A stretch of 13,115 nt of DNA from Pseudomonadota bacterium (GTDB taxonomy: Bacteria; Pseudomonadota; Gammaproteobacteria; Steroidobacterales; Steroidobacteraceae), in the NCBI GenBank assembly GCA_021817875.1, contig JAKAFQ010000054.1:1-13115 (forward strand), read 5' to 3'. The translations under genes were made by a program, and so were the position numbers. Shown here piece after piece: positions 1 to 12,109 of the stretch. How positions within the stretch are numbered: position 1 is the stretch's first letter; each line of letters starts with the position of its first letter. Below the pieces are notes generated by a model, which made no database searches, was not told where the DNA came from, and worked only from the letters and a program-made list of their open reading frames with translations.

Positions 1-32
1 CCGTCGTGCGCGGGGGCGAAGGTACGGATCAT
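1..32 (-). CDS. N-terminal start of an unidentified gene, cut by the left edge
   Basis: Reading the minus strand leftwards from an ATG at 32-30 gives MIRTFAPAHD and then the window ends. An AGGAG lies 7 bases upstream of this ATG, which is good spacing and the main reason to call it a start. The gene would lie downstream of the SSB-like gene on the same strand. An MIR..xPA.D beginning is seen in many GNAT acetyltransferases, but ten residues are far too few to assign a family, so the function is left open. Confidence 0.35.
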   Translation of the reverse strand, partial: MIRTFAPAHD

Positions 33-60
33 GGAGCGGCTCCTGGGCAGGTGTGGGACC

Positions 61-88
61 GGACCGCGGCCGGATCCGGCCGCGGTCC
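61..88. repeat. 28-bp perfect palindrome, possible terminator hairpin
   Basis: The arms GGACCGCGGCCGGA and TCCGGCCGCGGTCC are exact reverse complements with no loop base left over, centred on a GGATCC. It sits 18 bases past the stop of the SSB-like gene and before the next minus-strand start. As RNA it would form a very stable GC hairpin. There is no T-tract on either side, so it is not a canonical intrinsic terminator. It could attenuate transcription, protect a 3' end, or be a protein-binding palindrome. Confidence 0.5.
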
Positions 89-106
89 CGAAGCAGGCGG
101 CTGCCC

Positions 107-502
107 TCAGGCGCTCGCCGCAAGCGGCGGGCGCGCCTCGGTGCCGCCGTCCTCGGGCGCCTCGCGCCGGGATTTGCCGGGCGCGCCGAACCTGAAGCCC
201 TGCACGACGTACGAGTAGTCGTAACGCCGCTCGCCCTGCTTGTCGGTCCAGTTGTCGGCCCGCACCTGCGCCTCGACCAGCAGCTGATCGCCCCGGCGTG
301 CGTGCCGCGCGATCGTCTCGCCGAGCACACCGAACGCCACGAACCAGATGCTGGTGGCGATCTCCCGCTCGGCGCCCGCCTCGTCCCGGCCGGCATAGTC
401 GTTGCCGATCAGGCAGAACCTGACATAGGTGGTCTCGCCCTTGACCGTCAGCTCCGGATCGCGCGCGAGATGTCCGATGGCGGTGAGTGTGAAGCTGTTC
501 AT
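107..502 (-). CDS. ssb: Single-stranded DNA-binding protein (SSB-like, no acidic tip)
   Basis: The 131-residue product is one OB fold of the bacterial SSB family, which coats single-stranded DNA during replication, repair or transfer. Family landmarks are visible: IGHLARDPEL near residues 9-18, an aromatic-rich core strand around W53 (SIWFVAFG), and NWTDKQGERRY at 84-93, where W85 matches the DNA-stacking tryptophan of the KWTDQSG segment in E. coli SSB. After about residue 107 the tail is short and polar. It ends in PPLAASA and not in the acidic DDDIPF-type tip that recruits partner proteins, so this is probably an accessory paralogue and not the main chromosomal SSB. The ATG at 502 has GAGGA 7 bases upstream. 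A weak -10-like TAGACT (551-556, minus) lies upstream with no good -35. The family call is firm; the specific role is unknown. Confidence 0.88.
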   Translation of the reverse strand: MNSFTLTAIGHLARDPELTVKGETTYVRFCLIGNDYAGRDEAGAEREIATSIWFVAFGVLGETIARHARRGDQLLVEAQVRADNWTDKQGERRYDYSYVVQGFRFGAPGKSRREAPEDGGTEARPPLAASA

Positions 503-525
503 GTGCAGGTCCTCGTGATGGCTCG

Positions 526-544
526 CCGTGCCGGGTTGGCACGG
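526..544 (-). other. Leader hairpin upstream of the SSB-like gene
   Basis: CCGTGCC (526-532) and GGCACGG (538-544) form a perfect 7-bp stem with a 5-base loop, in the probable 5' untranslated leader of the SSB-like gene. SSB genes can be autoregulated through mRNA structure, but nothing here proves that. In DNA this GC-rich the stem could be chance. Confidence 0.3.
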
Positions 545-678
545 GGCAACAGTCTAGGAACCTGCGGCGGATTTGGAATCGCGTCAGGCTGCGCGTTTGT
601 GCAGAAATGCCGCTCCGGCGCCAGCGGCACCGCGCCGGCCGCTATCCTTTCCGACAGTCCTCTGCGGGGAGCGAACAC

Positions 679-900
679 ATGCCGCCAGACTGGTCTGCCG
701 GCCCGGAGCCGATCGAGGAGTGCATCGAGGCGCTCGATGAGCTCATCCTGAGCCTGCATCGGCATCCGCCGCGCGCGCTCGCCGAAGCCATGGGAGCGCA
801 TCTCGAGGCGCTGCTGCGCGCGCTGCTCGCCTCGGGCGAATGCTCGACGCGGGAAGTCAGAGACTTCCTGCGCGGGATCGCGCGCGGCATCGGATCGTGA
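679..900 (+). CDS. Small acidic helical protein of unknown function (73 aa)
   Basis: The ATG at 679 is preceded by GGGGAG at a spacing of about 7 bases, which favours it over an in-frame ATG at 607 that has no such site. The product has two predicted amphipathic helical stretches, roughly residues 11-27 (PIEECIEALDELILSLH) and 32-52 (ALAEAMGAHLEALLRALLAS), then EVRDFLRGIARG at the end. Third codon positions are strongly G/C, as expected of a real gene here. There is no signal peptide, membrane segment or metal motif; C15 and C55 are the only cysteines. I do not recognise the family. The gene diverges from the SSB-like gene and converges on the cytochrome operon. A TATCCT at 643-648 could serve as a -10, without a clear -35. 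Confidence 0.65.
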   Translation: MPPDWSAGPEPIEECIEALDELILSLHRHPPRALAEAMGAHLEALLRALLASGECSTREVRDFLRGIARGIGS

Positions 901-906
901 CGGGAT

Positions 907-949
907 AAAAAAATCGGGGCTTGCCGCGATCGAGTCACGACAAGCCCCG
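907..949 (-). terminator. Rho-independent terminator of the cytochrome operon
   Basis: CGGGGCTTG (915-923) and CAAGCCCCG (941-949) form a perfect 9-bp GC-rich stem with a 17-base loop. On the minus strand the stem is followed by a run of seven T (A907-A913 on the plus strand). It lies 50 bases after the stop of the diheme cytochrome gene at 999 and so ends that transcript. No T-run follows the stem on the plus strand, so it should not work efficiently for the small gene that ends at 900. Confidence 0.88.
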
Positions 950-998
950 CGTGAGCGCCGGCTGTCGCCAGCCGGCTCCGTGCCGTTACGGGGGGGCG

Positions 999-1649
999 TT
1001 ACGGCAACGATTCGAGATAGTCGGCCACCGCCTTCATCTGTCCGTCGTGCAGCGTCGAGGCCACGCCGTGCATGATGGCGACATTGCGCATGTTGCTCTG
1101 GAAGGAGGCGAGCTGCTTCAGGATGTACTCGGCATGCTGGCCCGCCAGGCGCGGGAACTGCGCACTGCCGAGCGCATCAGGACCGTGGCAGGCCGCACAG
1201 GCGGGCAGGCCCTGCGAGGGGATGCCGTGATGGTAGATCTCACTGCCTTCGGCGATCACGGCCGCCGAATGCGGCTTGCCCGGACCGGTCTTCTGACTCG
1301 AGAAGTATTTCGCCAGGGCGTCGATGGTGGCGTTCGACAATTGGCCCGCCATGCCCCACATGTAGCCCACCGCGTACGGATCCCCGCGGGTGTGTGCGCG
1401 AAACTCCTTGAGCTGCTGCTCGATGTACCAGGCCTTCTGGCCGGCGAGTCGCGGAAACATCGGGTTGACGCTGTTGCCGTCGACACCGTGGCAGGTGCCG
1501 CAGACCCCGACCGCGAGCTCCGGAGCCTGCTCCGGAGAGGTCGGGGCGCCCTGAGCGAGCACCGGCACGCTGACGGCAGTGAGGGCCGTCGCCGTAGCCG
1601 CCAGCAGACCACGATGCAACCAAACCTTGAAAGAATCATTGATGCGCAT
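999..1649 (-). CDS. Periplasmic diheme c4-type cytochrome (Cyc1-like)
   Basis: The 216-residue product has a signal peptide ending near residue 33 (PVLAQ) and two homologous monoheme class I cytochrome domains. Heme 1 binds at CGTCH (C50, C53, H54) and heme 2 at CAACH (C151, C154, H155). Each is followed by FPRLAGQ, the hallmark of the cytochrome c4 family. Aligning the two halves gives M97 and M193 as the likely sixth ligands. Cytochromes c4 carry electrons in the periplasm to terminal oxidases or to bc1. The start is the ATG at 1649, with GAGG 6 bases upstream; an in-frame ATG at 1673 would lie inside the preceding gene. The stop of the cytochrome-porin gene at 1658 is only 8 bases away, so the two are almost certainly co-transcribed. 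In Acidithiobacillus ferrooxidans a c4-type diheme cytochrome (Cyc1) directly follows Cyc2; this gene matches that role by type and position. Confidence 0.93.
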   Translation of the reverse strand: MRINDSFKVWLHRGLLAATATALTAVSVPVLAQGAPTSPEQAPELAVGVCGTCHGVDGNSVNPMFPRLAGQKAWYIEQQLKEFRAHTRGDPYAVGYMWGMAGQLSNATIDALAKYFSSQKTGPGKPHSAAVIAEGSEIYHHGIPSQGLPACAACHGPDALGSAQFPRLAGQHAEYILKQLASFQSNMRNVAIMHGVASTLHDGQMKAVADYLESLP

Positions 1650-1657
1650 GGTCGACC

Positions 1658-3100
1658 TCAGAATGCATACCACAGCATGAAGTACACGGTGTCATTGTCG
1701 GATGCGTTGCGGCCGACTCCATCATAGTTGTTGCTCGCTCCGTTGAATTTGCTGTAGTGGGTATACTGCAGCGCCAGCTTGACGTTGAGCCACGGCAGGT
1801 AGTCCACCTGGCCCACCAGCCCGTCGGTGTCCGGCGAGCCGTTGGCGCTGGTGATGACGCCGCAGCTCAACGGGCCGTTGTTCACGAGATCGCAGCCTCC
1901 GGGCGTCGTCGCCGGGTACAACAGGTTGTCGGTGCTGCCGGTGGTCGAAAACCACTGCAGCTGGGCACCGTACTTGCGCCGGTAGTAGTAGCTGGCCGCG
2001 ATCCGGCTGGTGTTCAGACTGTCTTCCCGGTTGGCACTTGCGCCTCCGAGGAAGCTCGCGAGGAGCTGCATGTTCTCGTGGATGTGCGTGCCGAGCACGG
2101 TGACGATGTTGTTCTCGCCGACGTACTGGTACTGGAAGTCCTCGGCGACATCCTGGAAGCGGTTGTCCGGGCCCTCGAGCAGCGAGCCGCCGCCCGGGTG
2201 CTCCTTGAATTCCGCGCCGTAGCCGCCGACTTCCAGGGAGTTCGCGCCCCAGTCGTACTCGTAGGCGAGCCGCCAGTAGGGCGAGACGCCTTCGATCACG
2301 TTGGAGAACGAGCCATCGAGCGGCCCAGCCTGGCCGGTCAGCGTGTTGACCTGGCCCTGCGCCGCCGTGCGGTATCCGCCGAACTCGACATACAGCGACT
2401 CATCCAGGTAGACGTAGGCGGTGAGGCCCGCCACGCTCTGCGCCAGGGCGCCGTCGATCTGGGTTCCGGCGAGCGGCGAGACCGCCGCGTCGCTTGCCGC
2501 GTAGGGGAAGCCCCAGGCCGGCGTGCTGTTCCACAGGTCCTGGACGGTCGGATTGTTGTTGAGTGACAAGCCGTAGGTCAGGGTGTGTTTGCCCGGCAGC
2601 ACGACCAGCTTGGCGAAGCGGATGTCGGTATTGTCGATGCCGATCGTACCGCTGTCGTTCCCGTAGGTGATCTGCGAGAACACGCCCATGTGCGGCGCGA
2701 TCTTGCCGGCATAGAACAGGCTGAGCTGCTGCGGGAAGCCCGCCGTACCGCTTTCGGTCACGCCCGGTGCCGCCGGGTTTCCGGTGCTGCCGTCGGGCAG
2801 CCGCTTGTTGAGCTGCGTATAGGAAATCTGCGTCATGATCGAGAACGTCGGGGTTCTCGACAGCGACAGCAGCTGCTGGCGGGCGCTGTTCGGCTCGCGC
2901 ACCTGCTGAAGATTGTCCAGCACGTAGCCGTTGGCCTTGAACACGCGACCGAAGTGCGTCAACTCCGGGAATACCGTATGGCATGCCGCGCAGGCCATGC
3001 CGGTCTGGCGCGCGAAGCTCGGCACCGCCTGCGCCGCCGGCGCCAGCAGTATCATCGCCGCAACAGCAGCCGCGAGCTGGAATCTAGTCTGCAATCGCAT
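1658..3100 (-). CDS. Outer-membrane cytochrome-porin fusion, Cyc2-like
   Basis: The 480-residue product starts at the ATG at 3100, with GGGAGG about 6-7 bases upstream; the longer frame to 3223 lacks this site. A signal peptide (residues 1-24, ending PAAQA) is followed by VPSFARQTG and a single heme site CAACH (C37, C40, H41), then PELTHFGRVFKANGY. This layout, a very short monoheme domain at the mature N terminus joined to a long beta-rich region, is that of Cyc2 outer-membrane iron oxidases (A. ferrooxidans Cyc2 is about the same length). The rest alternates polar and hydrophobic strands and ends YFMLWYAF, a terminal-phenylalanine signal typical of outer-membrane barrels. The only other cysteines, C403 and C413, could form a loop disulfide. 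I infer that the protein takes electrons at the cell surface and passes them to the c4 cytochrome encoded downstream. Related cytochrome-porins occur in bacteria not known to oxidise iron, so the substrate is unproven. Confidence 0.82.
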   Translation of the reverse strand: MRLQTRFQLAAAVAAMILLAPAAQAVPSFARQTGMACAACHTVFPELTHFGRVFKANGYVLDNLQQVREPNSARQQLLSLSRTPTFSIMTQISYTQLNKRLPDGSTGNPAAPGVTESGTAGFPQQLSLFYAGKIAPHMGVFSQITYGNDSGTIGIDNTDIRFAKLVVLPGKHTLTYGLSLNNNPTVQDLWNSTPAWGFPYAASDAAVSPLAGTQIDGALAQSVAGLTAYVYLDESLYVEFGGYRTAAQGQVNTLTGQAGPLDGSFSNVIEGVSPYWRLAYEYDWGANSLEVGGYGAEFKEHPGGGSLLEGPDNRFQDVAEDFQYQYVGENNIVTVLGTHIHENMQLLASFLGGASANREDSLNTSRIAASYYYRRKYGAQLQWFSTTGSTDNLLYPATTPGGCDLVNNGPLSCGVITSANGSPDTDGLVGQVDYLPWLNVKLALQYTHYSKFNGASNNYDGVGRNASDNDTVYFMLWYAF

Positions 3101-3115
3101 CTGTACCCTCCCGTA

Positions 3116-3132
3116 CCGCCACCCTGTGGCGG
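3116..3132 (-). other. Hairpin just upstream of the cytochrome-porin ribosome binding site
   Basis: CCGCCAC (3116-3122) and GTGGCGG (3126-3132) form a perfect 7-bp stem with a 3-base loop. In the mRNA it would end only three bases before the GGGAGGG ribosome binding site (3112-3106), and it falls within the roughly 40-base leader implied by the -10 element at 3148-3153. It could affect translation or mRNA stability. No known riboswitch or thermometer is recognised. Confidence 0.4.
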
Positions 3133-3147
3133 GGTGAAAGGAGCATA

Positions 3148-3153
3148 AGTATA
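3148..3153 (-). promoter_or_regulatory. Candidate -10 box of the cytochrome operon
   Basis: TATACT on the minus strand matches the TATAAT consensus at five of six positions. It would start transcription near 3141, leaving a leader of about 40 bases before the ATG at 3100. At 16-18 bases upstream there is no recognisable -35 hexamer, so an activator may be needed. Confidence 0.4.
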
Positions 3154-3191
3154 CGAAGCAGTGGCTGAAATCAGGGACTATCCCCCGGCGC

Positions 3192-3290
3192 GTTTCGCAA
3201 AACCGAAACACCGCGCACGGCACGGTCCCATTCGTAACACTAATGGACGCTGTTGGGTTTACGAAACGGGACTGCCGTCACGTTTACGAC
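3192..3290. promoter_or_regulatory. Cluster of TCGTAAAC-like motifs upstream of the cytochrome operon
   Basis: Between the DUF6600 gene and the -10 box, a stretch less GC-rich than its surroundings carries related short motifs. They are an inverted repeat GTTTCG-CAAAAC-CGAAAC at 3192-3209, TTCGTAACA on the plus strand at 3231-3239, TTCGTAAAC on the minus strand at 3257-3265, and GTCGTAAAC on the minus strand at 3282-3290. These lie about 40-140 bases upstream of the -10 box, where activator sites are usual. The regulator is unknown. Confidence 0.3.
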
Positions 3291-3327
3291 GCGGCCGAAC
3301 CCCGCCGCAGAGTGCCCGACGCAGCGC

Positions 3328-5637
3328 TCAGCGGCGGAAAACCACTCCGGGTGAGCGCAACGGTGCGGCGGCGAACCGCACCGGGCCCGGTCCGGGCCGC
3401 GGCGGCGCCCACCGGGGTGCGAGGGTGGCGTGCGGCGCGGGGCCGCCGAAGGCGCTCGCGCCCACCGGCCGGTACATCGGCGGTGGAGTCAGGGGTGGCG
3501 CATAGCGGGAGCCGGCGTCGAGCGGGGCTGTCGGGGCCAGCGGTTCATCCGTCACCGGCTGCGCCCGGTACATCGGTGGCGCGGACACGGCCGCGGCTTC
3601 AGCACCGCCGGCTCCGAAACTCATCTCGGCCCGCGGCGGGAAGCTCCTCGCGGGTGGCGCTGGAGCAGGACTCGGACGCTCAGCGCGGAAATGCGGCTGG
3701 AACCGTGGGGACGGGCGTACCTCACGGGGCGGGCTGTAGCGAGGCGGGCTCACGTAGCGAGGCGGGCTCACGTAGCGAGGGGGACTCACGTAGCGAGGGG
3801 GACTCACGTAGCGAGGCGGCGCCGGCCGGTACCGCGGCGCGCCGCCCGATCGGGGTGGCTGCGCGGGTCGAGCCGGCGCCCATATCCCCGGCGGCGTGCC
3901 TCGCCCACTCTGGGCCCACGGTGGGCGAGTCCCGCTGAGCGCCGGTCGCCCGGCACTCGGCTGCCCGCGCAGAACCGGCGCCGCGGCGGGCCCCCTGCGC
4001 GCAGCTCCTCCTGCCCAGGGCGGGCGATTGCTCGGTACGCCTGAACGCCCGAATGCCGGCGGACGCTGCAATCTCGACGCGCCCGGCACTCGCGGCGCGG
4101 TTCGCCACTGCAGCGCCGCGCCCGCCAGCCGCACCGGGACCGCCGGCCGGTTGGGTCGCAGATGCGCCCATTGTCCCGAGGTCAGGGGATGCCCGCCGTT
4201 GGCCCGAATCGCGGTCTGCTGCGCGACAAACGGCACCGGCGCCCGCGACGGGGCCAGCCGCGCCACCACCGGACGATCGACCAGGCGGCGGGGCGGGACG
4301 GCCGCCACTCGCGCGCCTGGACCGAGGACGCTCGCCTTAACGGGCGCGACGGCCGGAACCGCGCTCGTGAAACGCCTCATCATCCCGCCGTGCCGCGGCA
4401 GGACGATCCGGTGCGCGGCGACCGGCTGCGCGGTGGTGAATACGGTGCGCGGCACGAGCGTGAGCGCCCCGGGAACCGTGCTGTTCTGGTAAGAGACGGG
4501 CCTGTAATGCCCTCTGGACAGAGCGCTGATGACGTTGGGATTGACGCTCGTACTGTTCGTGGTGTTGATGTCGCGCACATAGCGGCGGCTCGCCGCGTAG
4601 CCCGGGCGATACACATCGCGGGGCCCGAGGGGGATCCAGCCCACGGCGCGCCGTGCGCCGCCCACCCTCCCGAGCGGGCCGTGCGTGAATGCCACCAGCG
4701 CCGGGGCAAAAATCGGCCGGACCACGCGTGGCCCCGGGACCCAGCACCAGCCGCCGTGCCACCGGCCCCATCGGCCGTAATGAAACGGCGCATAACCCCA
4801 GGGCTCCTCGTCGACCCAGGTCCAGCCCCAGGGCGCGACCCATGCCCAGTAGCCGACGCTATAGGGAGCCCAGCCCATCGGCACGACCGGAAACCAGGCA
4901 TACCCCCAGGTCGTGTATTGCCAATTGCCATAGTCCGCCAGATCATCCGCGCCCACCACGTCCGGCGAGACGTACTGCCCCACCGTCGTCGCCGCCGCAG
5001 CTTCCTGCCTGTCCCGCGCCATCGACCAGTCGTCGAAGGCATCGGGCGCTCCCAGGGTCGCGTAATCCGCCGTCAGTCTGTGCGTGCCCATGAACGTCAC
5101 GCTCTGCTGTGCACTCACCGGAAAGGTCTGGCCGTCACCGCTCGCCAAGGCCTCGCCGCTCACCACCCCGACGATGGTGGTGTCGCCGCTCTCGCTGACG
5201 TCCACGCGGTACGTCCCCGGCCGTTCGAGCGACAACGCGAGGTTGGGCGTGTCGATCTCGTCCTGCTCGCCATCGGCGAGTCCCCGCACGTGCACGATGA
5301 CTGTGCCGGCGGTCACCTGCATCTGCGCGGTGCGCCGATCGAGGTTGAGGAAGGAAAATCCGGTGAAGCTTCCCAGGCGGATGACCGCATCGCCGATGTC
5401 GAGCTCGGCGCGCGAGTGACGGTCGGCCCAGAGCCTGTCGCCGACGGTCACGGGCCGGTTGAGCTCGGCCGCGATCCAGTGGTGCGTGCCCGCGGGCTCG
5501 AGCGAGACGCTGCCCTCGATATCACTCAGCTGCGCGGCGCGCCCCGGCGGACTGTCCTGCGCGACCGTCACGGCGCTCATCGCGACGCACAGCGCCGCGG
5601 CGATGGCGGCCCATACCCCCGACGGATGGATTCTCAT
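3328..5637 (-). CDS. Secreted FecR-like / DUF6600 protein with Pro-Arg-rich tail
   Basis: The 769-residue product has a signal peptide (about 1-27, ending VTVAQ). A FecR-like beta-rich domain follows at roughly 33-190; the segments AQLSDIEGSVSLEP, VTVGDRLWADRHSRAELDIGD and VSGEALASGDG are typical of that fold. Next comes a Trp/Tyr/Gly-rich segment at roughly 235-330 (YGNWQYTTWGYAWFP, WVAPWGWTWVDEEPWGYAPFHYGRW), which is characteristic of DUF6600 proteins. The last 400 or so residues are low-complexity, rich in Pro, Arg and Ala, and include five PPRY copies near residues 606-634. The molecular function of DUF6600 is not established; a periplasmic or surface-bound structural or adhesive role is a guess. 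The ATG at 5637 has GGAG 8 bases upstream. It precedes the cytochrome pair on the same strand, but a 227-bp gap with its own -10 candidate suggests separate transcription. Confidence 0.85.
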   Translation of the reverse strand: MRIHPSGVWAAIAAALCVAMSAVTVAQDSPPGRAAQLSDIEGSVSLEPAGTHHWIAAELNRPVTVGDRLWADRHSRAELDIGDAVIRLGSFTGFSFLNLDRRTAQMQVTAGTVIVHVRGLADGEQDEIDTPNLALSLERPGTYRVDVSESGDTTIVGVVSGEALASGDGQTFPVSAQQSVTFMGTHRLTADYATLGAPDAFDDWSMARDRQEAAAATTVGQYVSPDVVGADDLADYGNWQYTTWGYAWFPVVPMGWAPYSVGYWAWVAPWGWTWVDEEPWGYAPFHYGRWGRWHGGWCWVPGPRVVRPIFAPALVAFTHGPLGRVGGARRAVGWIPLGPRDVYRPGYAASRRYVRDINTTNSTSVNPNVISALSRGHYRPVSYQNSTVPGALTLVPRTVFTTAQPVAAHRIVLPRHGGMMRRFTSAVPAVAPVKASVLGPGARVAAVPPRRLVDRPVVARLAPSRAPVPFVAQQTAIRANGGHPLTSGQWAHLRPNRPAVPVRLAGAALQWRTAPRVPGASRLQRPPAFGRSGVPSNRPPWAGGAARRGPAAAPVLRGQPSAGRPALSGTRPPWAQSGRGTPPGIWAPARPAQPPRSGGAPRYRPAPPRYVSPPRYVSPPRYVSPPRYVSPPRYSPPREVRPSPRFQPHFRAERPSPAPAPPARSFPPRAEMSFGAGGAEAAAVSAPPMYRAQPVTDEPLAPTAPLDAGSRYAPPLTPPPMYRPVGASAFGGPAPHATLAPRWAPPRPGPGPVRFAAAPLRSPGVVFRR
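3736..3820. repeat. 18-bp tandem repeat (4.7 units) inside the DUF6600 gene
   Basis: The unit GTAGCGAGGCGGGCTCAC repeats in tandem at 3736, 3754, 3772, 3790 and partly at 3808. Units 3 and 4 share the variant GTAGCGAGGGGGACTCAC, which points to duplication of a unit pair or local conversion. On the coding (minus) strand each unit encodes a six-residue VSPPRY step. Because 18 is a multiple of three, unit gain or loss would change length without a frameshift. Confidence 0.95.
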
Positions 5638-6069
5638 AGTGCGTGCTCCGGTGCCCGGGCCGCGGATCCGGTCCTGCTCGTCCCGGCGGTCCTCCGATCA
5701 GGGCGACATGATGGCAGGTATTCCTGACGCAAGCCTGACAGGAACCCCTCCGGGCGGGCCTGCATGGCGTGACGATCCATGCGTCGCTTATCGCGCGGTC
5801 GGGCTGAACCGGGCATGAACCCCCCGGGCCGCACGGCAGGGCGCGCTCCGGGCAGCGAGGGGAGAGCAGGAGCAGGCGCCACCCGGCGGGCCGGATATCC
5901 TGCGGCACAACCCCGGGAACGGCCGGCGGGCCGCACAGCCCTGGACCGGCCGGCATCCCGCGAGGGGCCGTATGGCTGCTGCCGCATGAACGATCGCCAG
6001 TGAGAATGATTTTTCCGTATAGCACACGGCGGGATGCCCCCGGAATTCCGCACTGCGTAGAATGCCCCG
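5638..6069. other. 432-bp divergent intergenic region, no convincing gene
   Basis: This lies between the divergent DUF6600 and MOSC genes. Short frames cross it on both strands, but none has a ribosome binding site with sensible codon use. The middle is very GC-rich, with an 11-bp direct repeat CCGGCGGGCCG at 5883-5893 and 5923-5933 and a possible stem between GGCCGG (5921-5926) and CCGGCC (5946-5951). The right end (about 5998-6023) is AT-richer and holds the possible promoter elements of the MOSC gene. Confidence 0.6.
6001..6015. promoter_or_regulatory. Weak Fur-box-like site
   Basis: TGAGAATGATTTTTC matches the 7-1-7 Fur pattern TGATAAT-N-ATTATCA at 10 of 14 positions, with a good left half (6 of 7) and a poor right half. 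It lies just upstream of a -10-like TATAGC at 6018-6023 before the MOSC gene. It is a candidate only, because the right half is weak. Confidence 0.25.
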
Positions 6070-6888
6070 ATGCCGCGCGCCATCGTTCAGGAACTGCATG
6101 TTTATCCTCTGAAATCCACCCGTGGCATCCCGCGCGCATCGGTACGCCTCACCGCCACGGGTTTCGAATGGGACCGGCACTGGATGGTGGTGCGCGCCGA
6201 CGGTCTGTTCCTCAGCCAGCGCACCCACCCCCGGCTCGCGCGTATCGCGACCGCGCTTTCTGCCGAGGGCCTCGCTCTCGACAGCGCCGGGCTGCAGAAG
6301 CTGGTCCTGCCGCTCGAGCCACGCGGCGAGCGGCGCCGCGTGAAGGTCTGGAACGATGTGTGCGAGGGCCTGGATCAGGGGGATGCGGCCGCGCACTGGG
6401 TGAGCGCCGTGCTCGAGGAACCGGCGCGCCTGGTCCGGGTTCCGCCCGGGCCCCGTCGGTTCGCGAACCCCGAGTACGCCGGCACCCAGGCCGCCCCGCT
6501 GGCCTTCCCGGACGGCTACCCCGTGCTCGTCTGCAACCGCGCGTCGCTCGATGATCTGAACCGCCGCCTGCCCGAGGCGCTGCCCATGGAACGCTTCCGC
6601 CCGAACCTGGTGATCGAAGGACTCGCGCCGTTCGCCGAAGATCACATCCACACCCTCGGCATCGGCCCGGTCACGCTGCGTTTGGTCAAGCCGTGCACAC
6701 GCTGCATCATTCCCTCGACCGACCAGCGCACCGGGGCTCGCGGGCTCGATCCTCTGCCGGTGCTGCGCACGTACCGCTTCGACCGCACGCTTCGCGGCGT
6801 CACCTTCGGAGAGAATGCCGTCATCGTCTCAGGCGCCGGCGAGACCCTGGAGTGCGGCGCCGAATGCCGGGTGATCGAGGAGGACTGA
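6070..6888 (+). CDS. MOSC-domain molybdenum cofactor protein (YcbX/mARC type)
   Basis: The 272-residue product has an N-terminal MOSC_N beta-barrel domain (about 1-120; opens with VQELHVYPLKSTRGI, then GFEWDRHWMVV) and a MOSC domain (about 140-268). Family signatures are RFRPNLVIEG (176-184), KPCTRCIIPSTDQRTG (207-222, cysteines C209 and C212) and GVTFGENA (243-250). In YcbX and the mARC proteins a cysteine in the PCxRC region holds molybdenum in the cofactor, and the enzymes reduce N-hydroxylated compounds. E. coli YcbX carries an extra C-terminal 2Fe-2S domain, which is absent here, so a separate electron donor would be needed, as for mARC. The ATG at 6070 has no clear Shine-Dalgarno, but a TAGAAT at 6058-6063 lies 6 bases before it, so the mRNA may be leaderless. 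The neighbouring ModE-like regulator supports a molybdenum link. The substrate is unknown. Confidence 0.88.
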   Translation: MPRAIVQELHVYPLKSTRGIPRASVRLTATGFEWDRHWMVVRADGLFLSQRTHPRLARIATALSAEGLALDSAGLQKLVLPLEPRGERRRVKVWNDVCEGLDQGDAAAHWVSAVLEEPARLVRVPPGPRRFANPEYAGTQAAPLAFPDGYPVLVCNRASLDDLNRRLPEALPMERFRPNLVIEGLAPFAEDHIHTLGIGPVTLRLVKPCTRCIIPSTDQRTGARGLDPLPVLRTYRFDRTLRGVTFGENAVIVSGAGETLECGAECRVIEED

Positions 6889-6997
6889 CGGGATCGCCTG
6901 CGCGCTGTGCGGCTTGCCGCTGCCGCGATCTCGGACAGCCCCTACCCACACCCGCTACAGTTACGGGTATGCTGGGCACGATAGGCGGTCTGGTCCC

Positions 6998-7420
6998 ATG
7001 AACCACACAGTGCGCATCCGGGTGGACTTCTCTGCCGGCGGCTCGATCGGCCCGGGCAAGGTGGCGCTGTTGGAAGGCATCCATCGGACCGGCTCGCTGC
7101 GCCAGGCCGCGCAGGAGTTGCGCATGAGCTACCGCCGCGCATGGCTGCTCGTCGATGAGATCAACCGTTCGTTCCTCACGCCGGCCACCACGGCGACCGT
7201 CGGCGGCGCGGGCGGCGGCGGCGCCGCGCTCACCCCGTTCGGCGAGGAGCTCATCCGGCGCTTTCGCAGGCTCGAACGCGCGATCCAATCGCTCTCACGC
7301 GAGGCGCTCGCACCGATCACCGCGCAGGTCAGGTCCGCACCTCCGGCCAAGGCCCGCAGCACCTCGAGCGCCCAGCGCCGGCGCCTCTCGCGCACGGCAT
7401 CCTCGGGACGCGCGGATTGA
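6998..7420 (+). CDS. HTH-only ModE-like transcriptional regulator
   Basis: The 140-residue product is the winged-helix DNA-binding domain found at the N terminus of ModE, the molybdate-responsive regulator. The helix-turn-helix is at about 22-57 (LLEGIHRTGSLRQAAQELRM, then SYRRAWLLVDEIN). The wing carries GGAGGGGAALTPFGEELI at 69-86, which matches the conserved GGxGGGGAxLT segment of ModE. The two molybdate-binding MOP domains of full-length ModE (about 260 residues) are missing, and a basic Ser/Arg-rich tail (about 110-140) follows, so metal sensing cannot be assumed. The start at 6998 is chosen because homology to ModE begins there; an upstream in-frame codon at 6914 adds unrelated sequence. 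The Shine-Dalgarno is weak (AGGCGG). The MOSC gene lies 109 bases upstream. Its stop codon overlaps the longest frame of the Omp85 gene, suggesting co-transcription with it. Confidence 0.85.
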   Translation: MNHTVRIRVDFSAGGSIGPGKVALLEGIHRTGSLRQAAQELRMSYRRAWLLVDEINRSFLTPATTATVGGAGGGGAALTPFGEELIRRFRRLERAIQSLSREALAPITAQVRSAPPAKARSTSSAQRRRLSRTASSGRAD

Positions 7421-9200: not shown

Positions 9201-9350
9201 TGACACCGGACGCGCCGCACCCGCCGACGCCGCCGGGCCTCGATCGCCGGCCCATCCCTGGCGCGCCACCGCGCGCTGCGCCCCGCGGCCGCCGCGTTGC
9301 AATGGCAAACAACAGGTTCGGCGCGCCTGCCACGCCCCGCCATCGCCCAT

Positions 9351-9372
9351 CCGTCAGCATTCCGTCAGGAAT
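9351..9372 (+). promoter_or_regulatory. Pho-box-like direct repeat 1
   Basis: Two adjacent 11-bp units, CCGTCAGCATT (9351-9361) and CCGTCAGGAAT (9362-9372), have the 7-base core plus 4-base AT-richer spacer geometry of PhoB sites (CTGTCATAAAT-type units). Counting by eye, they match the 18-base E. coli consensus at about 12 positions. A further CCGTCA at 9375-9380 is out of the 11-bp phase. Confidence 0.4.
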
Positions 9373-9395
9373 GACCGTCACGGCGCCGCGCAGTC

Positions 9396-9414
9396 GACAT
9401 CAACCGTCGATGTC
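9396..9414. repeat. Inverted repeat overlapping the second Pho-like cluster
   Basis: GACATC (9396-9401) and GATGTC (9409-9414) are reverse complements separated by 7 bases. The right arm shares bases with the first unit of the second Pho-like cluster (9410-9420), so it may be an operator or a coincidence of the TGTCA core. Confidence 0.3.
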
Positions 9415-9442
9415 ATCTTCCCGTCACGCTGCTGAAACATTC
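9410..9442 (+). promoter_or_regulatory. Pho-box-like direct repeat 2 (three units)
   Basis: Three consecutive 11-bp units, ATGTCATCTTC (9410-9420), CCGTCACGCTG (9421-9431) and CTGAAACATTC (9432-9442), keep the PhoB helical phasing; the first two match the 18-base consensus at about 13 positions by eye. The cluster ends 93 bases before the receptor start codon. No convincing -10 element is seen downstream (GCATGGTACC is the nearest possibility). Confidence 0.42.
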
Positions 9443-9535
9443 CGACCGCATGGTACCCGACCTTCGGGGGCCGTCGGCGGGACCGAGCGCTCCTGGTCAG
9501 GCTTGAACAACACGAACCCTTGCAGGAGACCGGCC

Positions 9536-12109
9536 ATGCCCACCACAGCGAGTTCAGCGGCTTCCCGGCGCAGCCCACAGAGCAATCGAATCAGGACAGC
9601 CGTGCGGCTCGCACTGGCAGGCACCCTGGCGGGCGGCATCGTTTCCCAGGCCGCCATGCCCGTACCCGCGTTGCCCTCTCCCGGACCAAGCCCCATTTCG
9701 ACCACCGCACTCAACCAGGTGCTGGTCACGGCGCGCCGCGAGCGCCACAAGCAGGACTTCGTGAGCAGCTCGACCGTCAAGACCCTGGATCGCGACCAGA
9801 TCCGCGCCAGCACCACGGTCGGCGGCGCGGCCCAGGCGATGATGCTCGTGCCCGGAGTCAGCGTCTCCTCGTACGGCGCCACCGGCGCGCAGAAGTCCAC
9901 CATCAGCATCAACGGCATCAAGACCGGCTGGGCCGGATTCTCCGGCGGCAACCCCGACAACGGCAGCATCGCCCCGAGCTTCGACGGCGTGCCGATGAGC
10001 AACCCCGGCAACGATCTGTGGCAGGCCACGCTCATTCCGCAGACCTCGCTGCTGCAGACCATCAACGTCACGTATGGTCCCGGGCAACCCAAGGACCGCT
10101 GGTGGACCAATATCGGCGGCGCGATCGACTTCGTGCCACTGCAGCCCTCGGGCGCATTCGGCGGCGATGTCGCCCTCACCTACGGCAGCTACCAGACCAA
10201 GAACGTCTCCTTCGACCTGCAGACAGGCGACCTGCACGGCTGGCGCACGGCGATCGCCGGCGGCTGGAACCACGCGCACAACTTCCTGCGCGGCCGCGAC
10301 GGCTACGAAAATCCGAGTTACAACTACGCGTACTATCTCAAGACACGGCATCGATTCGCCGGCGGTGACGGCGACTTCAGCATCGGCGCCTACGTGGCCC
10401 GCGCCAGCGCACAGCGTCCGTTCCCGATACCCGTCACGCCGATTCCGGGCGTCTACATCACCGGCCCGGCGACCCCGGGAGCGCTGATCAGCCAGCGGAC
10501 CACCGGTTTCTACACGACCCTGCCGTACTCGGTGAACTGGAAACTCGACGTCAACGCCATCGAGATGCTCTGGAGCAAGCTGAACGTGCGGCTGTCCTCG
10601 GTCACCTCGGTGCACAACCTGGTGTACTTCGACCACGAGCACCGTCTGCACTACACACCGCTGCACGACTACCTGCCACCGCAGCAGTCGAGCTGGGAAA
10701 TCAACCGACCGTCCTCGCACGTCCTCGGCGACAAGCTCACATTGGAATTCAACCTGCCGTACAATCGGGTGTTCGCCGGCGGCTATCTGCAGTTCAGCAA
10801 GTACTATTCTCAGGAACAGACCTACTATCCGAACGAGACCTTCGCGCAGGCACTGACGCAAAACGGCTATACCGGGACGTTCCCGGCGGCCGCCTACACC
10901 ACCTACGGCTCGCCGAGCGCCCCGAACGGCACCTACGACAGCGACATCTTCGATCAGCTCAATGGCGCGCTGTACGTGCAGGACACCATCAGGCCGATTC
11001 CGACGCTGCGCCTCGAACCGGGGTTCCGCGAAGTCAACTACACGATGGACTTCTATCCGAACGAGTATTCGGTATTCCCGCTCGGCGTGCAGCTCAACCC
11101 ATGCGGCGACTACAGCCAGATCACCCCGAGCGCCGGCTGCCAGAGCCAGACGCTGACCCCCACAACCTCGATCAACCCCTCCCCGACGGCCCATACCAGC
11201 TTCTTCCGCGCCGAGCCGTACATCGGAGTGAACTGGCGGGCTCTGCCCTGGCTCGCGGTCTACGCCAACTGGGGCTGGACCTACCGCTACCCGGAGAACG
11301 GCGGCGGCACCGGGCCGTACGTGAACATAGCCGCTTCGAGCGTCCATCTGGAAAAGGGCGCCGACACCATCGTCGGATTCAAGATCCACAAGCGCCGTTG
11401 GGGCCCGGTCACCGACATGGAACTCGACATGAGCTACTCACACCTGGATTTCACCCACGAGACCATTCCCTCGGCCCTGGCGGCGGGCGGCGCGCTGCTG
11501 GCATACGGCTCCTCGACTTACGACGGCGTGAACATCTTCGGCGACGCTTCGCCGCTGCACGATTTCTACCTGTTCGCCAATATCGGCGTCGTCAGCGCGA
11601 GGTTCACCAGCTACATCAACGGCGACACGAACGCGACCGGCAGCCTGACGATCTACCACCACGTTCCGGTGCCGTACACTCCGACCACCAACATGAGCTT
11701 CGGCGTGTATTATCTGCTGCAGGCCGGCAGGGTGCTCATCGAGCCACGACTCACCTACCTGCGCACCGGCTCCCAGTATGCCTTCGACAACAATACCAAC
11801 ATCACCGCGAACGGCGTGATCCCGGACTCCTATCTCGGGGCAAACGGCAACACCATCAATACCGGCAGCACGAACATCCCGGGCTACGGACTGCTCAACT
11901 TCTCCACCAGCTTCGACGTGCCGACCTCGTGGAGCGACGGCATCCAGGACCTGAAGGCGACCATCGAGGTCGACAACCTCGCAAACAGGCAGTACAACTC
12001 GTTCGAATACGTCACCTCGGGCGGGTTGTACAACTCCCCGGGCGGACCGGTGATCGCATATCCCGGCGCACCGAGAACCTGGTACCTGACGTTGACCGCG
12101 AGCTTTTAG
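9536..12109 (+). CDS. TonB-dependent outer-membrane receptor
   Basis: The 857-residue product starts at the ATG at 9536, where AGGAGA lies 6 bases upstream. A long signal peptide has a basic start (R11, R12, R18, R20) and a hydrophobic core (TAVRLALAGTLAGGIVSQAA). A TonB-box-like QVLVTARRE (61-69) precedes the plug domain (about 72-205; VGGAAQAMMLVPGVSVSSYG, STISINGIK, SFDGVPM, INVTYGPGQ, IGGAIDFVPLQPSG). A large barrel follows, rich in Tyr, Asn and Thr, and ends WYLTLTASF with the usual terminal phenylalanine. Such receptors import scarce ligands such as siderophores, vitamin B12, sugars or phosphorus compounds, using TonB energy. There is no N-terminal signalling domain, so it is not a FecA-type transducer. 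No transport genes are adjacent, so the ligand cannot be named; Pho-like repeats upstream suggest control by phosphate supply. Confidence 0.93.
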   Translation: MPTTASSAASRRSPQSNRIRTAVRLALAGTLAGGIVSQAAMPVPALPSPGPSPISTTALNQVLVTARRERHKQDFVSSSTVKTLDRDQIRASTTVGGAAQAMMLVPGVSVSSYGATGAQKSTISINGIKTGWAGFSGGNPDNGSIAPSFDGVPMSNPGNDLWQATLIPQTSLLQTINVTYGPGQPKDRWWTNIGGAIDFVPLQPSGAFGGDVALTYGSYQTKNVSFDLQTGDLHGWRTAIAGGWNHAHNFLRGRDGYENPSYNYAYYLKTRHRFAGGDGDFSIGAYVARASAQRPFPIPVTPIPGVYITGPATPGALISQRTTGFYTTLPYSVNWKLDVNAIEMLWSKLNVRLSSVTSVHNLVYFDHEHRLHYTPLHDYLPPQQSSWEINRPSSHVLGDKLTLEFNLPYNRVFAGGYLQFSKYYSQEQTYYPNETFAQALTQNGYTGTFPAAAYTTYGSPSAPNGTYDSDIFDQLNGALYVQDTIRPIPTLRLEPGFREVNYTMDFYPNEYSVFPLGVQLNPCGDYSQITPSAGCQSQTLTPTTSINPSPTAHTSFFRAEPYIGVNWRALPWLAVYANWGWTYRYPENGGGTGPYVNIAASSVHLEKGADTIVGFKIHKRRWGPVTDMELDMSYSHLDFTHETIPSALAAGGALLAYGSSTYDGVNIFGDASPLHDFYLFANIGVVSARFTSYINGDTNATGSLTIYHHVPVPYTPTTNMSFGVYYLLQAGRVLIEPRLTYLRTGSQYAFDNNTNITANGVIPDSYLGANGNTINTGSTNIPGYGLLNFSTSFDVPTSWSDGIQDLKATIEVDNLANRQYNSFEYVTSGGLYNSPGGPVIAYPGAPRTWYLTLTASF

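Follow-up and report, generated by a model that had tools for sequence, protein, structure and literature searches.

A 13,115-nucleotide stretch of DNA (the window; GenBank contig JAKAFQ010000054.1, assembly GCA_021817875.1), probably from an uncultured bacterium of the Steroidobacteraceae, carries what sequence comparison and a predicted structure lead us to read as a probable two-gene electron-intake unit of the Cyc2-Cyc1 kind, with Fe(II) as the most likely donor. Both genes and their layout, as first described in an initial annotation of the same DNA, are confirmed in the window sequence (Table 1): one encodes a protein with a signal peptide, a single CAACH and a terminal Phe, and the other, after an 8-base gap (1650-1657), a diheme cytochrome c4 with two FPRLAGQ motifs. 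GAGG, fitting a ribosome site, overlaps the TGA stop of the Cyc2-type gene. The terminator proposed to close the unit was also recovered (stem 915-949, 15 pairs plus a T run). Positions 1-6000 contain three terminator-like sites, against an average of 2.1 in shuffles, and this stem is the longest of them; a hairpin with a T run lies 3′ of the c4 stop in 11 of 21 window-clade c4 genes, the window counted (a tally with no shuffle control). Together, the data show, or in the case of the barrel strongly predict, a 16-strand outer-membrane barrel with a fused monoheme segment, and a diheme c4 following it in the same short unit.

The Cyc2-type protein satisfies the Cyc2 signature of Keffer et al., as given in the available text of that study (PMC8406198). 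Its N-terminal part reads ..AQAVPSFARQTGMACAACHTVFPELTHFGRVFK, in which AXPXFAR[Q/K][T/Y] precedes the single CXXCH (AVPSFARQT-GMA-CAACH) and PXL soon follows it (CAACH-TVF-PEL); at 480 aa it lies above the published minimum (at least 365 aa), its signal peptide was read by eye, and the fused 16-strand porin of that definition appears in the predicted model. Heme-site residues C37, C40 and H41 are invariant in a 56-row alignment (A3). Structure prediction, which the initial annotation had recommended for its guess of a barrel-like region, backed that guess: the AlphaFold2 model has 16 strands and a porin match. No Pfam or NCBIfam match was obtained at 0.1, which shows only that these libraries hold no such model. 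At least 7789 of 8000 scored candidates proved to be relatives of the Cyc2-type protein; this family size, together with synteny and the predicted model, ruled out a chance or mis-called gene. The protein aligns over its full length with Acidithiobacillus Cyc2 (31–38% identity), and with Mariprofundus ferrooxydans P0203 well over the first ~120 residues only (29%).

Its downstream partner has the two c-type domains and two CXXCH sites of cytochrome c4/Cyc1. The best PDB matches are 1h1o (cytochrome c-552, 132 bits), which we take to be Cyc1 (CYC41) of A. ferrooxidans, and 1etp (cytochrome c4, 128 bits), presumably from Pseudomonas; the 1h1o sequence matches, at 99% identity, a protein of A. 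ferruginosus that is encoded behind Cyc2 (L001). The Glu at 1h1o position 121, for which we assume a role at the rusticyanin interface, is not found in the window c4 (Ala there) and, apart from 1h1o, occurs in 3 of 32 c4 rows (L001, L004, L005).

Pairing of the two genes was examined in the order reached through the best MOSC match, in which 22 of 196 sampled genomes match the Cyc2-type protein at 1e-30 with identity up to 81%. Scored by tblastn with the window c4, a c4 gene lies directly downstream on the same strand in all 20 window-subfamily loci of this order (L159-L177, L179), and likewise in L081 (G428) of another order. By the same measure c4 is absent from 10 regions of divergent copies in the same order (L178, L180-L188; 31–40% identity), and such a divergent copy is also present in 8 of the 20 pair genomes. 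Two Cyc2-type copies (L176 in G828, L179 in G751) show an internal stop or a split match in the assemblies, which may reflect sequencing error or decay. More widely, 27 of 369 genomes of the class match at 1e-30 and 39 of 299 of the phylum at 1e-10, 12 of the latter along most of the protein or in extended pieces and the other 27 mostly in the N-terminal part. Some relatives are labelled Steroidobacteraceae; one (P0068) is labelled Tepidiformaceae, perhaps through a binning error. The probable family assignment of the window draws on the former labels and on synteny with G759 and G779. Within the phylum and class regions (L081-L120), c4 is directly downstream in 5 of 40 (L081, L099, L100, L112, L120), so that outside the window's order, rus loci aside, pairing is the exception; L092 and L095 instead carry c4 ~2 kb upstream, and L085, L114 and L118 leave little downstream room for its detection. 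Behind the pair in L112 (6435-14182) lies a 1769-aa protein that carries 57 CXXCH motifs and MtrC/MtrF-like and c7 domains. Pairwise identities of the Cyc2-type protein and c4 correlate (r 0.87 over 32 sets, in three of which c4 is not directly downstream).

The suggestion that the unit is portable applies elsewhere in the family, where relatives sit on nine plasmids, but in the window's order the unit appears mostly inherited: its presence needs 4 changes on an RpoB tree of 60 genomes. Of 80 genomes, 14 dropped out of this tree for want of an RpoB match, including the pair genomes G787, G836 and G839; also absent are the partial G749 and G802, and G656, G694, G743 and G766. Annotation seen around eight plasmid copies places a c-type cytochrome gene directly behind the Cyc2-type gene, or within ~500 bases after it, in seven; in three of these seven (L012, L016, L018) the following cytochrome is c4 kin by tblastn, and L014 has a c4 3.8 kb upstream. 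Plasmids of Acidithiobacillus ferrooxidans YQ-N3 (L015), Acidiphilium cryptum (L019) and Acidiphilium multivorum (L013) share a near-identical block of pdxST, U32 peptidases, SCP2, the Cyc2-type gene and a c-type cytochrome; the A. multivorum copy of the Cyc2-type gene is split.

Membership of a rus operon was ruled out by the want of linkage to coxA and rusticyanin. No coxA was found in the window, which extends 998 bases beyond the c4 gene, or in any of the 20 window-clade regions (<5 kb of downstream sequence in six). Rusticyanin exceeded the cut-off in 0 of 22 genomes of the order, with one weak match in G740; it did so in 3/3 Acidithiobacillus-type genomes, and one contig of G001, from which L001 comes, carries rusticyanin ~5.4 kb away from a Cyc2. 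The original description is supported in this respect: a Cyc1-type c4 follows the Cyc2-type fusion, and neither oxidase nor rusticyanin genes are attached. With cyc2-cyc1 of the Acidithiobacillus rus operon (L001-L011) the window shares gene order, the monoheme porin plus diheme c4, and the signature; c4 is directly downstream in 11/11 rus loci, a set located through c4 in the first place. It differs in sequence (31–35% identity), and in having no linked coxA or rusticyanin, a c4 without Glu at 121, and a separate clade.

Similar arrangements are known outside the operon: stand-alone cyc2 and cyc1 genes exist in Acidithiobacillus, and Cyc2 relatives occur in heterotrophs such as Acidiphilium, according to the accessible text of PMC10654088. 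L120, of the stand-alone Acidithiobacillus type, resembles the window in having Cyc2, then c4, and no coxA in the region, but belongs to another lineage, sister to the rus set. The Caballeronia sp. SBC1 plasmid pair (L012) encodes a Cyc2-type protein 44% identical to that of the window with c4 directly after, but is plasmid-borne with a HiPIP gene upstream. Cyc2-type proteins of Mariprofundus ferrooxydans (P0194, P0199, P0203), one of which may be the tested Cyc2 of strain PV-1, share the N-terminal heme signature but fall in a separate clade. In a 79-row tree, which leaves out two long-branch rows (L040, L051), three sets each form one side of a branch: the 25 rows of the window clade (support 98), a rus set made up of L120 and three rus-type loci (support 100) and a 15-row Mariprofundus set with nine rows from genomes without an organism label (support 100). 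In this placement, of the kind recommended initially, the protein falls outside both clades standing in for tested Cyc2. Relative to the clusters of Keffer et al. (PMC8406198, available text), it lies outside the Mariprofundus set and is full-length kin of rus (cluster 2) but outside its clade, in a comparison made without any cluster 3 reference.

The genetic background of the unit was approached through two relatives. Window, G759 and G779 share a gene order of SSB, c4, cyc2, DUF6600, MOSC, Omp85-like, zinc-ribbon and bactofilin genes, and these two genomes therefore stand in for the window's host. RuBisCO (PF00016) was matched in 13 of 20 pair genomes and 0 of 2 with the divergent copy alone, and among genomes of the order sample without a match in 1/20 and 3/80 (20 listed plus 80 of the remaining 154, none with a Cyc2 match at 1e-30, weaker matches being possible). 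The count of 13 is an over-reading: weaker PF00016 matches (E ~1e-68 to 1e-72) are probably RuBisCO-like proteins, and only form I-strength matches were therefore counted. Neighbors were scanned for one weaker match, that of G759 (L284), and are a sugar-kinase-type protein, GH127 and an MFS transporter. Form I-strength RuBisCO is present in 10 of 20 pair genomes vs 3 of 100 genomes without a match; nine of the ten count as 1e-130 or better, G836 among them at 2.0e-130, and the tenth is G740, where the match is split in two pieces. The nearest two relatives found, G759 and G779, carry it, and the third nearest, G771, has the weaker type only; the description of the host as otherwise heterotroph-like is accordingly not supported. 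Gene neighbors of form I were scanned in two genomes, and the small subunit was confirmed beside the large one in both, with an adjoining AAA ATPase in G759, presumably CbbX, and a phosphoribulokinase-family gene in G755. NiFe hydrogenase was found in 4 of 22 genomes (G697, G759, G779, G839), all form I carriers; in the remaining six of the ten carriers it was not detected.

Published accounts, as far as their available texts go, include comparable bacteria. A Cyc2-like cytochrome is described as possibly encoded by Steroidobacteraceae MAG 28 (metagenome-assembled genome) from acid mine drainage, which is listed as carbon-fixing (PMC8357290); this MAG and the window's host are probably of the same family, and the portion of the account available makes no mention of a paired c4. 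Genes for extracellular electron transfer (EET) are reported in bog-lake Steroidobacteraceae (PMC12285243), and a biocathode organism expresses a Cyc2 homologue and a Cyc1 c4 (PMC5371394). No description of the conserved Steroidobacteraceae pair was found in the literature as available, which is weak evidence of absence.

Under the electron-intake reading, the barrel would admit a reduced donor, most likely dissolved Fe(II), to the heme at the pore, from which the electron would move to the periplasmic c4. Without rusticyanin, c4 would receive electrons straight from the Cyc2-type heme and would pass them to terminal oxidases and, uphill, to a bc1 complex encoded elsewhere. For relatives that carry form I RuBisCO, such intake could support autotrophic or mixotrophic growth. 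A broader proposal, that a Steroidobacteraceae-type lineage is an unrecognised group of iron-oxidising autotrophs or mixotrophs with a minimal, mostly inherited unit, Fe(II) as donor, a Calvin cycle, no Sox and, in six of the ten form I carriers, no detected NiFe hydrogenase, is tentative and on balance doubtful.

Several observations weigh against the electron-intake reading. Foldseek TM-scores of the model are modest (0.33–0.45 by query), the window clade is separate from both the rus and Mariprofundus sets, and no biochemical work on it was found in the literature. Parallel divergence of the two proteins may be explicable by plain shared descent. On the RpoB tree the RuBisCO-pair link comes down to 4 independent contrasts (median p 1), none of them in the opposite direction, whether all PF00016 matches or form I alone are counted; because 4 contrasts allow no significance, the Fisher value was not used as proof. 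Furthermore, all 17 placeable pair genomes fall in one 24-row group of that tree, so that kinship alone could produce the link. Both nearest relatives carry NiFe hydrogenase, and H2 could drive their CO2 fixation. SoxB was found in 0 of 22 genomes at 1e-20, but control genomes also fell below this cut-off. Finally, in the available text of a 2026 karst cave study, all Cyc2 of 25 positive MAGs are cluster 3, of uncertain role; a Steroidobacteraceae MAG of that study, which may be among the 25, has RuBisCO and methanol-oxidation genes (PMC13264449).

We considered whether the same conduit might serve a natural donor other than Fe(II), such as reduced humics or quinones, Mn, an electrode-like surface or another cell. 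This is unlikely, since tested Cyc2 proteins oxidise Fe(II) and the window shows no sign of another donor, although the 'Ca. Tenderia electrophaga' homologue responds to cathode potential (PMC5371394, available text), and 90% of Steroidobacteraceae MAGs from a humic lake are listed as EET-positive, with 0–2 oxiEET genes, in the accessible part of PMC12285243. We regard as improbable a detoxifying or electron-disposal device that would oxidise Fe(II) or another metal at the surface, or send electrons outward, without conserving energy. Copies on the nine plasmids are compatible with such a role, as are five c4-less relatives with RND (ACR_tran) pumps next to them or no more than two genes away (L090 4312-8802, with a CusB-like partner in the neighbor set; L091 12110-15193; L093 2703-5837; L096 5752-8904; L097 5349-8486). 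These suggest a role tied to metal resistance for part of the Cyc2-like family, and count further against the electron-intake reading in that the wider family may have other roles. However, an RND-like gene occurs in only 1 of 20 window-clade regions (L164, ~5 kb from the pair) and not in the window, and c4 cytochromes commonly feed oxidases. That the c4 is an ordinary respiratory one, behind the cytochrome-porin for historical reasons, would fit its nearly equal match to 1etp and the missing Glu121, but is very improbable given direct adjacency in 20/20 genomes and no c4 in the 10 regions of divergent copies.

Features of the unit are collected in Table 1. The DUF6600 protein directly upstream, proline-rich in its C-terminal half, is not shown to be part of the cyc2-c4 unit. 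Farther along the window lie a MOSC-domain protein (6070-6888), a regulator resembling a ModE molybdate-response domain (6914-7420, below cut-off) and a TonB-dependent receptor (9302-12109; siderophore-type profile match below cut-off), the last with no match in the otherwise syntenic L159 and L160.

Table 1 Coordinates of the cyc2-c4 unit and its upstream neighbor in the window
Feature	Position	Strand	Remarks
Cyc2-type cytochrome-porin gene	1658..3100	minus	480 aa, ATG at 3100; full-length match to rus-operon Cyc2 of Acidithiobacillus
Signal peptide, residues 1-25	3026..3100	minus	Sec-type, ..APAAQA/VPS (cleavage at the slash), read by eye
AXPXFAR[QK][TY] motif (AVPSFARQT)	3002..3028	minus	matched to motif in PMC8406198 (available text)
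Heme site CAACH	2978..2992	minus	only CXXCH of Cyc2-type protein
PXL motif (PEL)	2960..2968	minus	P45 and L47 invariant in alignment A3 (56 rows)
16 predicted beta-strands, residues 87-479	1664..2842	minus	AlphaFold2 model, porin match
Diheme cytochrome c4 gene	999..1649	minus	216 aa; best PDB match 1h1o (cytochrome c-552), E 2.2e-37
First c4 heme site CGTCH	1488..1502	minus	sequence
First FPRLAGQ	1437..1457	minus	sequence
Second c4 heme site CAACH	1185..1199	minus	1h1o carries CMECH here
Second FPRLAGQ	1137..1157	minus	sequence
Intrinsic terminator stem-loop	915..949	minus	15 pairs, T run after stem
Upstream neighbor, 769-aa DUF6600 protein	3328..5637	minus	same place in five relatives (L159, L160, L161, L165, L166)

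The locus is a good but ordinary example of an already known kind, to which we add a tightly conserved two-gene form in the window's order, the difference between this form and copies lacking c4 in the same genomes, and an indication of autotrophy contrary to the first picture of the host. A little-studied, possibly carbon-fixing lineage is thereby added as an iron-oxidation candidate. Should Fe(II) oxidation by the unit hold, bacteria known until now from MAG lists would become predicted iron oxidisers, and their simple two-protein conduit would be more readily tested than the rus operon. The division into c4-paired and c4-less copies bears on the caution, voiced in the available text of PMC8406198, that many Cyc2 homologues have untested function: it may offer a cheap genomic sign separating electron-intake Cyc2 from relatives with other roles, such as those adjoining metal pumps.
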